43,105 nucleotides of DNA from Verrucomicrobiota bacterium (GTDB lineage: Bacteria > Verrucomicrobiota > Verrucomicrobiia > Limisphaerales > JADLHS01). Numbering within the stretch: position 1 is the stretch's first letter; each line of letters begins with the position of its first letter. The notes beneath the pieces were generated by a model. It did not search any database, was not told where the DNA came from, and saw only the letters and a program-made list of their open reading frames with translations. A program made the position numbers and the translations under genes. This document shows, piece by piece, positions 29,266-32,963 of this stretch. The stretch is from positions 1 to 43,105 of the forward strand of contig JANXWY010000461.1 in the NCBI GenBank assembly GCA_025350905.1, read 5' to 3'.

Positions 29266-30447
29266 TCAGCGCGGGAGCGCCCGGGCGGCGGCGTAGGCCG
29301 CGAGAAATTTCTGCGCCATCAACTCCGGGGCCAGATACGCCCGCATCTGGGCGAGGGTTTCCGGCGCCACCTGCCCCTGGCGAAACAGCGGATGCGCACA
29401 GGCGGCGCGGAGCGCCCGCCCGAATTCTTCCAGATCGCCAGCTGGAGCTAACACACCATTCTTCCCCGGGATCACGTAATCGGGAATGCCCCCGACGGTC
29501 GCCGCCACGACCGGGACGCCGGCCACGACGGCTTCCTTGACGGCGTTCGGACTGTTATCGGCCCGGGTCGGCATGAGTAACAACGTCGCAGTTTCGAGTT
29601 CGGCGGCGACTTCGTGAGGGAGCAAATGCTGCTTGAACTCGGTGCGGCGCCAGGTGCGTTCGGAGACCGTGGGGCGGAGCGACTCGATGAGTTGCCGGGA
29701 AGCGTCGGTAATGATCTTGAGTTTGAAATCAAGCTCCGAAGCCAGCCGGTCGAGCGCCGCGAACAACAAGTCCGTTCCTTTCAACCGGGTCAGGCTGCCG
29801 ATGCTGACGAACTCGAAGGGTTGGCTCGACGGCCGACGGCACACTCGGCCAAATACGGGGTGGGGAGCGTGTTCGACCTGAAACACTTTAGGTCTTGGAA
29901 AATGGTTTCCCAAAAACTGCACGGCGAAATGGGATTCCGCTGTAACCACCCGGGCGCGCTGAAGACTGATCCGCTCCACGCCTTCGATGAAACGGACATA
30001 AGGGCTGAGTTTGACGTGCTGTTTAAGCCAGGCGAACAAGCCTTGAATCGTCATCACGTAGGGATAGGCCAGGCGGGAAGCAATCAGGCCGGCCCCCTTC
30101 TCACTCCCCCAGGCATGCACCAAGTCCGGCTGGATTTGCGCGCAAAGCCGGCGGATCCGCAGGGTGTCGAGCCAGAAGCACGACGCCACCCGTAACTTCG
30201 GAGAGGCCTTGAGCACATGGAACGTGACGCCCTGACGGCGGAAAGAAAAATCTGCGGCCAGCTGCCCGCGAAACAGGATGACATGGCAACGCAAGGCGGG
30301 ATTCTTTTCCAACTCCGCCAAGAGGACCATCTGCCACGTGGCCGGATTGCGCCGTTCAAGCTTTTGCAGTTGAGCCGGAAGGTCCGACAGCCACTCAATC
30401 GGGAAATCGGAAATCCAAGCGATGGTTAAAGGTGTGTTGGCGGCCAT
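29266..30447 (-). CDS. GT4-like glycosyltransferase (paralogue 1)
   Basis: The 393-residue protein has the two-domain GT-B layout of GT4 retaining glycosyltransferases. The N-terminal half shows PDLVHAWGSEKGAGLIASRL and a helix with VERISLQRARVVTAES. The C-terminal half shows FVSIGSLTRLKGTDLLFAAL (donor-site strand) and the E-x7-E-type block SPNAVKEAVVAGVPVVAATVGGIPDYV. The sugar and acceptor are unknown; the location beside lpxK-waaF and another GT, a methyltransferase and an acyltransferase suggests LPS or other surface polysaccharide. It is clearly paralogous to the gene at 30596-31774, roughly two-thirds identical by eye over the N-terminal half. It converges on ftsK with only 13 bp between the stops. 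The ATG at 30447 begins MAANTPLTIAWISDFP, matching the paralogue. Confidence 0.88.
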   Translation of the reverse strand: MAANTPLTIAWISDFPIEWLSDLPAQLQKLERRNPATWQMVLLAELEKNPALRCHVILFRGQLAADFSFRRQGVTFHVLKASPKLRVASCFWLDTLRIRRLCAQIQPDLVHAWGSEKGAGLIASRLAYPYVMTIQGLFAWLKQHVKLSPYVRFIEGVERISLQRARVVTAESHFAVQFLGNHFPRPKVFQVEHAPHPVFGRVCRRPSSQPFEFVSIGSLTRLKGTDLLFAALDRLASELDFKLKIITDASRQLIESLRPTVSERTWRRTEFKQHLLPHEVAAELETATLLLMPTRADNSPNAVKEAVVAGVPVVAATVGGIPDYVIPGKNGVLAPAGDLEEFGRALRAACAHPLFRQGQVAPETLAQMRAYLAPELMAQKFLAAYAAARALPR

Positions 30448-30595
30448 GAATACTTAGCTGCCGCTTTATCGGCGCGCACAAATTGGAAACCGAACCGGAG
30501 GGTGTAAAGGTAATTTCGCAACCGACCCGGCGGGCGGACCTGCCGCATTCTCCCAATCCACCCGTGCCGCCCGCGGCGCGGAACACAGCCGGAGT
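30448..30595 (-). promoter_or_regulatory. Upstream region of glycosyltransferase 1, partly duplicated upstream of glycosyltransferase 2
   Basis: On the minus strand the block around 30515-30469 contains AAATTACCTTTAC followed by CCAATTTGTGCGCGCC. The related block upstream of the paralogue (about 31846-31801) contains AAATAAACTTTAC followed by CCATTTTGTCCGCGCC. The shared parts lie at similar distances from the two start codons (23 nt and 29 nt). The duplication therefore carried regulatory sequence, though I cannot name the binding factor. Confidence 0.5.
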
Positions 30596-31774
30596 TCAGC
30601 GCGGCATCGACAAGGCCGTGGCGTACGCCGCGAGAAAATTTTTCGCCATCAATTCCGGGGACAGATATTCCCGTTGCACGGCCAGCGTGGCCGGATCCAC
30701 CCGACCGCAACCAAACAAGGGATGGGCGCAAGCGGCCTGGATCGATTGGATGAACGCCTCCAAATCCCCCGGCGGAAACAAGAGCCCGTTTTTTCCCGGC
30801 ACCACATAGTCGGGAATTCCGCCCACGGCGGCCGCGACGACCGGCAGGCCGGCGACGACCGCTTCCTTCACGGCGTTCGGACTGGTATCCGCGCGCGTCG
30901 GCATCAGCAACATCGTCGGCGTCTCCAGTTCGACGGCGACCTCGTGCGGCAACAAGTGATGTTTGAACTCGACCCGTTCCCAGGTTTGCGCGGACACCGA
31001 ACGGCGCAGCGACTCGATGTATTCCGACGACGGCCCGGAGATGACCTTGAGCCGAAAATCCAGTTGGGGCGACAAGCGATCCAGCGCCGCGAAAATCATA
31101 TCGGTGCCTTTGCGATGCCCCAACCAGCCTACGGTGAGGAACTGAATCGGCGCCGTTTGAGGCCGGCGCACGAGGTGGCGAAAAACCCCGTTCGGGGCGT
31201 GTTCGGCCTGGTGAATTTTCGGACCCGGGAAATTCTCGGCGAGAAACTGGACGGCGAAGTTGGACTCCGTGGTCACCACCCGCGCCCGCTTGAGACTGAT
31301 GCGCTCGACCATGGCAACGAACCGATCGTACGGCGCGAGCTCGATTTTTTGCTGGTACCAGGTAAACAACCCCTGAATCGTCATGACGTACGGCCAGCGC
31401 AACCGCGAGGCGATCAAAGCGGCGCCCTTCTCGCTGCCCCAGGCGTGCACCAAATCCGGCTGCAGGCGCTGGCACACGCGCCGGATCCGCAACGTGTCCA
31501 ACCAGAAGTAGGTTGCCAACCGCAGTTTCCCCTTCGCTTTCAAGACATGAAAGGTCGTGCCGTTGCGCACAAAGGAAAAGTCCTGCGCAATGGGGCCGCG
31601 CAAGACAATCACGTGCGTCCGGATCGCCGGATTTTTTTCGAATTCGGCCAGCAAGACCATTTGCCAGGTCGCGGGTGGCCGCCGCGGCAGGGCCCGCACG
31701 GTTTCGGGAATATCCGGCAACCACTCAATCGGGAAATCGGAAATCCAGGCGACGGTGAGCGGGGGGGTCAACAC
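30596..31774 (-). CDS. GT4-like glycosyltransferase (paralogue 2)
   Basis: This paralogue has about 392 residues and the same GT-B architecture as its neighbour: PDLVHAWGSEKGAALIASRL, VERISLKRARVVTTES, FLTVGWLGHRKGTDMIFAAL and SPNAVKEAVVAGLPVVAAAVGGIPDYV. Differences cluster in the N-terminal acceptor-binding half (DRFVAMVERIS, TWYQQKIELAPY), so the two copies may add the same kind of sugar to different acceptors. The frame extends to a TTG at 31801. I prefer the GTG at 31774, because alignment with the paralogue puts VLTPPLTVAWISDFP opposite MAANTPLTIAWISDFP, and the bases from 31775 to 31801 align with the paralogue's untranslated leader. The intergenic gap to the paralogue is 148 bp; a separate promoter for each is likely. 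Confidence 0.87.
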   Translation of the reverse strand: MLTPPLTVAWISDFPIEWLPDIPETVRALPRRPPATWQMVLLAEFEKNPAIRTHVIVLRGPIAQDFSFVRNGTTFHVLKAKGKLRLATYFWLDTLRIRRVCQRLQPDLVHAWGSEKGAALIASRLRWPYVMTIQGLFTWYQQKIELAPYDRFVAMVERISLKRARVVTTESNFAVQFLAENFPGPKIHQAEHAPNGVFRHLVRRPQTAPIQFLTVGWLGHRKGTDMIFAALDRLSPQLDFRLKVISGPSSEYIESLRRSVSAQTWERVEFKHHLLPHEVAVELETPTMLLMPTRADTSPNAVKEAVVAGLPVVAAAVGGIPDYVVPGKNGLLFPPGDLEAFIQSIQAACAHPLFGCGRVDPATLAVQREYLSPELMAKNFLAAYATALSMPR

Positions 31775-31920
31775 AGTGAGATCTCGCAGTCGTTTTCGCA
31801 AAGGGCGCGGACAAAATGGTGAGCGACCCAGACAGAGTAAAGTTTATTTGGCGGCCCCAAGAGCCCGCGAAAGTCGGATCGCCTTCGCACGGTAGCTGAC
31901 CTCCCGCGTACCGCAGCCAA

Positions 31921-32098
31921 TGGGGTGCGACTGGAAGTGGCGGTCCGTGTGGTAGAACGGCTCGCGCTGCGAGCCGTCGTGCCGCGTCCAGCGGCACGTC
32001 CGAGTCACCGCACGTTCCGCCCGCTCGGCGCGGGCGGAGTGTTCGCAGTGCGAACACTCCTACCACCCGGGTTGACCGCCACTTCTGGTCGCACCCCA
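31921..32098. repeat. Composite multi-hairpin element (BIME/REP-like)
   Basis: Outer arms 31921-31945 and 32074-32098 pair at 23 of 25 positions, and both mismatches would be G-U in RNA. Inside, GTGGTAG (31949-31955) pairs with CTACCAC (32060-32066). Between these lie four hairpins: 31957-31977 (9 bp, 3-nt loop), 31978-31998 (8 bp, 5-nt loop), 32016-32038 (9 bp, 5-nt loop) and 32038-32058 (9 bp, 3-nt loop). The two halves are themselves related copies in opposite orientation. It occupies the divergent intergenic region between glycosyltransferase 2 and the methyltransferase. Confidence 0.85.
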
Positions 32099-32112
32099 GC
32101 CAATGCCGTCGG

Positions 32113-32141
32113 TGGACAAACCCGCCCGCGCCCGTCATGCT
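32113..32141 (+). promoter_or_regulatory. Putative promoter of the methyltransferase gene
   Basis: TGGACA (32113-32118), a 17-nt spacer and CATGCT (32136-32141) end 6 nt before the GTG at 32148. The boxes are weak, but the position matches the promoters of ftsK and the LON-domain gene. Confidence 0.35.
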
Positions 32142-32147
32142 GGCGGC

Positions 32148-32963
32148 GTGAACAAGCTGAATTTCGGATGTGGCCACCGCTACGCTCCCGGCTGGGTGAA
32201 CATTGATTTTCACTCGGAACACCCCGAGGTGCTTCGGGTGAACCTGCTGCGCCGACTGCCCTTCGCGGACAACGCCTTCGAGGTCGTTTACAGCAGTCAC
32301 GTCCTCGAGCATTTTGCCCCGGCGACCGCGGAAGGCTTGCTTCGTGAGTGTCACCGGGTGCTGAAGCCGGGCGGCATCCTGCGGACGGTGCTGCCGGACT
32401 TGGAGAGCGCCTGCCGGGAATACGTACGCCTGCTCGACGAGGTCCAGACCTCGGAGGCGGCGCGGCGACGTTACGAGTGGATCATCTTGGAATTGCTGGA
32501 CCAACTGACTCGCACCCAACCCTCCGGCTTGATCGGAGCCTACCGGGAAAAACTCCTGGCCGCCAACGATCAGGAAATGATTGCCTACGTCCAGTCCCGA
32601 ACCGACACGATCCCGTGGACTTCGCCCGCTCCGGCCACGCTGGCCAATCGCGTCCAGTCCCTCACCTGGAACAAACTCCGCACCAAACTGGTCTACGGTT
32701 ACGTTGGTTTGGTGAAACGCCTGCTGCCGCCGGGTCTGCGCGCAACGCTGATGGATGACACTCGCATTGGGGAGAAGCACAAGTGGATGTATGACCGGCA
32801 CGGGCTCTCGGGGCTGCTGCACCGCTGCGGCTTCGACCAGATTGTCTTCCTGTCGGCCGCGGAATCCCAGATCCCCGAATTTGCGAGCGACCACCTCGAC
32901 ACGGAAGCGGATGGGCGACCGTACAAGCCCGGCTCCCTTTTCTCCGAAGCGCGGAAGCGATGA
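32148..32963 (+). CDS. Class I SAM-dependent methyltransferase
   Basis: The 271-residue protein is a Rossmann-fold methyltransferase. Motif I is LNFGCGHRYAPGWVNIDFHS (residues about 4-23). Post-I and motif II follow with LPFADNAFEVVYSSHVLEHF, and motif III with LLRECHRVLKPGGILRTVLPDLE. The pattern resembles methyltransferases in polysaccharide clusters that modify sugars or nucleotide-sugar intermediates; the substrate is unknown. It has a long C-terminal extension (about 100-271). The frame is open from an ATG at 32103, only 4 bp after the composite hairpin, but family members start close to the K-L-N-F-G-C-G motif. The GTG at 32148 begins VNKLNFGCG and has promoter-like boxes 6 nt upstream, so I use it. 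Confidence 0.85.
   Translation: MNKLNFGCGHRYAPGWVNIDFHSEHPEVLRVNLLRRLPFADNAFEVVYSSHVLEHFAPATAEGLLRECHRVLKPGGILRTVLPDLESACREYVRLLDEVQTSEAARRRYEWIILELLDQLTRTQPSGLIGAYREKLLAANDQEMIAYVQSRTDTIPWTSPAPATLANRVQSLTWNKLRTKLVYGYVGLVKRLLPPGLRATLMDDTRIGEKHKWMYDRHGLSGLLHRCGFDQIVFLSAAESQIPEFASDHLDTEADGRPYKPGSLFSEARKR

Follow-up and report, generated by a model that had tools for sequence, protein, structure and literature searches.

A miniature transposable element carrying a REP-like dimer ahead of a methyltransferase gene in a Verrucomicrobiota genome

Introduction

The question raised by this locus is what kind of element occupies a strongly folding 178-bp stretch at positions 31921-32098 and what could have moved it there. 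The window, which is the whole stretch of 43,105 nucleotides that was analysed, comes from a Verrucomicrobiota assembly (G000) of 6.27 Mb in 489 contigs. An earlier note on this DNA had read the stretch as a composite of inverted repeats and hairpins resembling the BIMEs of E. coli, and had proposed that it could be a REP unit moved by a RAYT-type transposase. The BIMEs of E. coli have specific Y/Z REP sequences and sites for IHF or gyrase. We find that the inside does have the layout of a head-to-head REP dimer, but that the element as a whole is a MITE bounded by terminal inverted repeats (TIRs).

Results

Anatomy and fold

The outer arms, the second inner pair (GTGGTAG/CTACCAC) and the four hairpins described in the earlier note are all present. 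The arms at 31921-31945 and 32074-32098 are 25 nt long and 92% complementary, with two mismatches that are both G-U compatible, and the stem arms of the hairpins are AACGGCTCGC/GCGAGCCGT, CGTGCCGC/GCGGCACG, CGCCCGC/GCGGGCG and GAGTGTTCGC/GCGAACACTC. The two halves are indeed inverted copies of each other (50-nt arms, 72%). Folded as RNA, the 178-bp stretch reaches -130.8 kcal/mol with a z-score of -10.3, and folded as DNA it has a z-score of -10.8; no shuffle reached either value.

Alignment of the copies with their flanks places the true ends of the element at 31923 and 32096, which gives a length of 174 bp, and the window copy lies between perfect 9-bp target duplications (Table 1). The complementarity of the 25-bp outer arm holds, but its outer two base pairs are flanking DNA within the target duplication and the TIRs are 23 bp long. 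Inside the 174-bp element a consensus scan found no intrinsic terminator or promoter, and no Rfam family matches it at gathering score. A known structured RNA was rejected, as the low-threshold matches to microRNA precursors were weak and of the kind that any such fold may give by chance. A phage or plasmid origin was also rejected, with no match found.

Table 1. Features of the element and its surroundings, in window coordinates
Feature	Position	Strand	Remarks
Glycosyltransferase gene	29266-30447		next gene beyond the ORF 30426-31724
432-aa ORF between glycosyltransferase gene and element	30426-31724	-	
Left target site duplication, CAGCCAATG	31914-31922		identical to 32097-32105
Left terminal inverted repeat, GGGTGCGACTGGAAGTGGCGGTC	31923-31945	+	common to ISKra4-like ISs in L117 and L084
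GTGGTAG with GTAG tag	31949-31955	+	partner 32060-32066; relatives show double changes, A-U to G-C
Inner module, head-to-head REP-like dimer	31949-32066		covariance model R1; in relatives also outside recognisable TIRs
Hairpin 1, first REP-like unit	31957-31977	+	96.9% of cells paired
Hairpin 2, first REP-like unit	31978-31998	+	85.8% paired; double changes
Spacer between the two inverted units	31999-32017		varies among relatives in length and sequence
Hairpin 3, second unit	32018-32036	-	96.4% paired
Hairpin 4, second unit	32037-32059	-	94.7% paired; 15 sequences have a U-A to C-G double change
CTACCAC, inverted GTAG tag	32060-32066	-	partner 31949-31955
Right terminal inverted repeat, GACCGCCACTTCTGGTCGCACCC	32074-32096	-	pairs with left TIR
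Right target site duplication, CAGCCAATG	32097-32105		identical to 31914-31922
Putative -35 box TGGACA, 16 bp beyond the element end	32113-32118	+	offset enrichment across all copies
Putative -10 box CATGCT, 17-bp spacer	32136-32141	+	read from sequence
Methyltransferase gene	32148-32963	+	Pfam Methyltransf_11, E 5.8e-13; likely GTG start at 32148

The insertion locus

The methyltransferase neighbour named in the earlier note is confirmed, but on the other side the directly upstream ORF has no match in Pfam or NCBIfam and the glycosyltransferase is the next gene along. Nor does the element fill the promoter region between divergent genes, as had been stated; it ends 16 bp before the putative -35 box. 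A stricter consensus promoter scan does not call the TGGACA/CATGCT pair, so the methyltransferase promoter stays putative. The likely GTG start is in frame with an ATG at 32103, and the putative CATGCT stands only 6 bp ahead of this GTG (window 32113-32150), so that the predicted methyltransferase mRNA may be nearly leaderless.

Copies in the genome

At least 40 places in the window's own genome match 141 bp or more of the element at 90-100% identity, and about 50 copies are present in all, mostly 94-99% identical. We counted about 52 places with hairpin units, of which some 18 lie at contig ends, and from this we put the number of element copies at roughly 45-50. A search with the TIR pattern gave 113 matches, which include a second family of 227 bp described below, against 2 for the reversed control pattern. 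Among the 36 copies with both flanks available, 15 have perfect 9-bp target duplications and another 5 match at 8 of 9 positions, while mismatched control pairings of flanks never exceeded 7 of 9. Open frames of at least 600 nt hold the insertion sites of 6 of 19 copies, compared with 76% of control positions in this rough test, and insertions are therefore mostly intergenic. With exact-end TIRs, a duplication of fixed length and TIRs common to an autonomous IS, the DNA at 31923-32096 is a repeated mobile unit, a MITE.

Many contigs of this assembly (C2, C6, C18, C19, C34, C35 and others) terminate within the element, which makes it a likely cause of the fragmentation of the assembly.

Promoter targeting

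The outward flanks of the own-genome copies, with the 174-bp and 227-bp families pooled (n = 93), were compared with TTGACA. With the hexamer placed exactly 16 nt beyond the element, 20 flanks match in at least 5 of 6 positions and 30 in at least 4; at 28 other offsets the mean count for at least 5 of 6 is 0.39 and the maximum 2. Matches to the -10 box average 2.73 of 6 in promoter-facing flanks as opposed to 1.86. As each copy contributes two flanks, of which usually one is able to face a promoter, a large share of the copies is promoter-linked; some copies have no recognisable -35 box. A promoter is faced more often by right ends (15 of 31) than by left ends (6 of 36; Fisher p 0.008). The same 16-nt offset is seen in two of the ISs described below and in several decayed copies in the related genome G006. 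Comparable behavior has been reported for several members of the ISKra4 group, with insertions lying 13-17 bp ahead of sigmaA promoters, and for TnGBS, where the distance is 15-17 bp (PMC3942029).

The inner module and its relatives

A covariance model, R1, was built on positions 31947-32070. Of 116 genomes that were sampled from the order, 28 have matches to it, in several cases 24 copies or more, and the 194 other genomes in the sample of the phylum have none. For most copies in many of the matching genomes no outer TIRs could be recognised, and some copies form tandem arrays, for example at L272 (G049:C245:3500-6200) with a spacing of 192 bp.

In an alignment of 32 copies, taken from the own genome and its relatives, 91.6% of cells are paired, against 32-48% in slid controls, and 62 cells carry double changes, against 9-23. 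Columns 32 and 139 of this alignment switch jointly from A-U to G-C, so that where the own genome has the tag GTAG, G006 has GTGG; with the preceding base the tag is GGTAG in the own genome and GGTGG in G006, G049 and G124. The earlier note was right that the element is repeated and mobile, and the pairing is conserved and covaries. Both outcomes that the earlier note had named as contrary to its reading, a lack of further copies and a lack of conserved pairing in related genomes, are at odds with what we find. The inside belongs to an order-wide family of REP-like dimers which is also present outside recognisable TIRs.

An IS partner for the terminal inverted repeats

A scan of GTDB genomes found the TIR almost only in Verrucomicrobia records. 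In a Pedosphaera sp. (L117) two matching TIRs bound a 1444-bp IS with a 447-aa ORF. The best NCBIfam match of this transposase is ISKra4 (NF033572, E 4.8e-42), at 144.5 bits where the curated cut-off is 205, and a frameshifted relative at L084 reaches 187 bits against the same cut-off. ISs of this kind with GGGTG-type TIRs and perfect 9-bp duplications were found in three relatives, at L084 (CTCACGCGG), at L185 (GCACCGCGT), in a genome of the same genus as the window genome, and at L186 (TTGGAAATG). An intact ISKra4 transposase was not found in the own 489-contig assembly, where the sole trace is a 73-aa match at 33% identity.

Other combinations of REP dimers, RAYTs and TIRs

Another MITE family of the own genome, about 227 bp long, shares these TIRs but has a different REP-dimer interior (G000:C262:16654-16880, C87:4520-4746, C87:1133-1363 and others; L061, L051, L050, L056, L062-L064, L077); several of its copies have perfect 9-bp duplications. 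A division of this family into separate types B and C was rejected, as these are one family in two orientations. Its dimer can be aligned with the repeats around a RAYT gene of the same genome (L040, G000:C377, ORF 1438-2097 on the minus strand). These flanking repeats (1272-1442 and 2144-2314) are 171-bp REP dimers, 91% identical, with two hairpins per unit, and the protein scores 95.5 bits against the REP_Tyr_transpos cut-off of 80, making it a genuine RAYT. In addition, at L284, L285 and L306 (G110, G081) the inner module lies within a different TIR, GGTRGTGGTACA, with duplications of about 8 bp. The 174-bp family, the 227-bp family and the GGTRGTGGTACA TIR apparently stand for at least three occasions on which a REP-like dimer and a TIR pair came together, and it would seem that REP dimers have been captured repeatedly.

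The RAYT genes L318 (G110:C49) and L327 (G006:C155) are flanked by another REP type, in which GTAG is followed by a CCCACGG/CCGTGGG hairpin.

Discussion

We consider it very probable that the mover of the element is a DDE transposase of the ISKra4-like type and not a RAYT, and that the element is the MITE of an IS with such a transposase, with a REP dimer as payload and a preference for sites upstream of promoters. The assignment comes from the 9-bp duplications, the 23-bp TIRs common to ISKra4-like ISs and the fixed 16-bp spacing to the -35 box, and TIRs, duplication length and promoter spacing all concur on the class of transposase. An ISKra4-type DDE transposase made elsewhere would bind both 23-bp TIRs in trans, move the element through a 9-bp staggered cut, and choose sites that lie 16 bp before the -35 box in promoters of the sigma70 type. 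Such a selection of sites would account for the position of the window copy immediately before the promoter of the methyltransferase gene. Between the TIRs lies the payload, the head-to-head REP-like dimer in the order GGTRG, hairpin, hairpin, spacer, hairpin, hairpin, CYACC, which was probably captured on entry into a TIR pair. We saw no empty TIR-TIR palindrome in 57 genomes, so the capture step is without an intermediate; the dimer may have been inserted into an existing MITE, or the TIRs may have formed around it.

The proposal of the earlier note, that a RAYT (a Y1 tyrosine transposase) spread a REP/BIME unit or REPIN here, would make the outer palindrome a favoured target or a by-product. 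It agrees with the inner architecture and the GTAG tag, with the copies outside recognisable TIRs and the tandem arrays in relatives, and with the 16 Y1_Tnp matches and the genuine RAYT flanked by REP dimers in the own genome. Against this, the own genome has no GTAGRA hairpin unit outside the TIR-bounded element, and the copies end at TIRs with 9-bp target duplications. IS200/IS605-type transposition is not known to make such duplications or TIR boundaries, and the duplications at the TIR ends refute a RAYT as the current mover in the own genome. The search for an adjoining RAYT points the same way. None of 66 RAYT (Y1_Tnp) loci has the R1 module beside it; where weak R1 matches lay beside Y1_Tnp (L045) inspection found no module, and the tag-plus-hairpin patterns beside RAYTs are of other REP types (CCCACGG, CGCAGGC). 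The genome G053, which is 97% complete, carries 25 copies of the module but no Y1_Tnp match. We therefore regard this explanation as very unlikely.

Another possibility is that the inside has a function as structured RNA or DNA, for example as an insulator, a 5' or 3' mRNA structure or a protein-binding site, and is kept under selection while the MITE merely distributes it. The covariation and the position 16 bp upstream of promoters would fit this, as would the conservation in G006, where the inside is 88.5% identical between copies and the TIRs 73.7%; in the own genome both are about 96% alike. The difference in G006 could come from constraint on the inside, from conversion or from independent activity. 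However, copying alone is expected to give a common structure, covariation is normal in REPINs also (PMC3116915), and there is neither an Rfam family at gathering score nor a terminator-like site, so we give this explanation only a slight chance. Any effect of the element on transcription would be an inference. Finally, a non-mobile, fixed regulatory palindrome of the methyltransferase locus would suit the position at that promoter, but it is refuted by the presence of roughly 50 copies that lie at unrelated sites and have target duplications, and it has next to no probability.

The ISKra4-type MITE reading can be compared with three kinds of known systems. The MITEs of bacterial ISs (RUP, NEMIS, Nezha, MITEAba12 and others) are likewise short and non-coding, with TIRs common to an autonomous IS, a duplication of fixed length, many copies and an intergenic bias, but here the interior is a REP-like dimer related to copies outside TIRs and not leftover IS sequence. 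The ISKra4-group ISs and TnGBS/ISLre2, which have p-MULT 3/4 Mutator-like transposases (PMC3942029), share with our case a TIR-bounded IS with an ISKra4-like transposase, insertion at a fixed distance upstream of sigmaA promoters and unequal use of the two ends; the element here differs in having no transposase, its TIR pair holding only REP-like DNA, and the transposases of the partner ISs score under the family cut-off. GTAG REP dimers, or REPINs, and their RAYTs (PMC3733652, PMC3116915) resemble the module in the outer tag (GTAG in the own genome), the two inverted units, the structured spacer, the compensatory changes and the tandem clusters in relatives. They differ in that the module here has two hairpins per unit, a tag which varies between GTAG and GTGG and pairs with a partner, no adjoining RAYT found, and movement as the cargo of a MITE. 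Closest in outline are the REP dimers in long palindromes of Anabaena variabilis and Halothiobacillus neapolitanus (PMC3733652), where an outer inverted repeat also encloses a REP dimer. That palindrome was described as a target, whereas here the inverted repeat is made up of the TIRs of a transposon that has target duplications, a partner IS and a preference for promoters. Each part is of a known kind; in the literature that was searched, neither their combination nor its repeated occurrence has been described as such.

A broader and rather doubtful idea, which we put forward tentatively, is a parasite with two modes of mobility. REP dimers of the order-wide family would time and again become lodged between the TIRs of unrelated DDE transposons and so acquire another way to spread, delivery 16 bp upstream of some 50 promoters, where the folded dimer would serve as a shared regulatory or insulating cassette kept under selection by the host or the element.

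The element joins two classes of miniature mobile DNA, REP dimers and MITEs, which are usually treated apart. REP dimers within palindromes were recorded in 2013 but not explained, and the present case suggests that they can be the cargo of transposons. It also becomes testable whether the regulation of a genome is altered when one strong cruciform or RNA structure stands at a constant distance in front of dozens of promoters. The fixed 16-bp offset could also be used to map promoters in an uncultured lineage.
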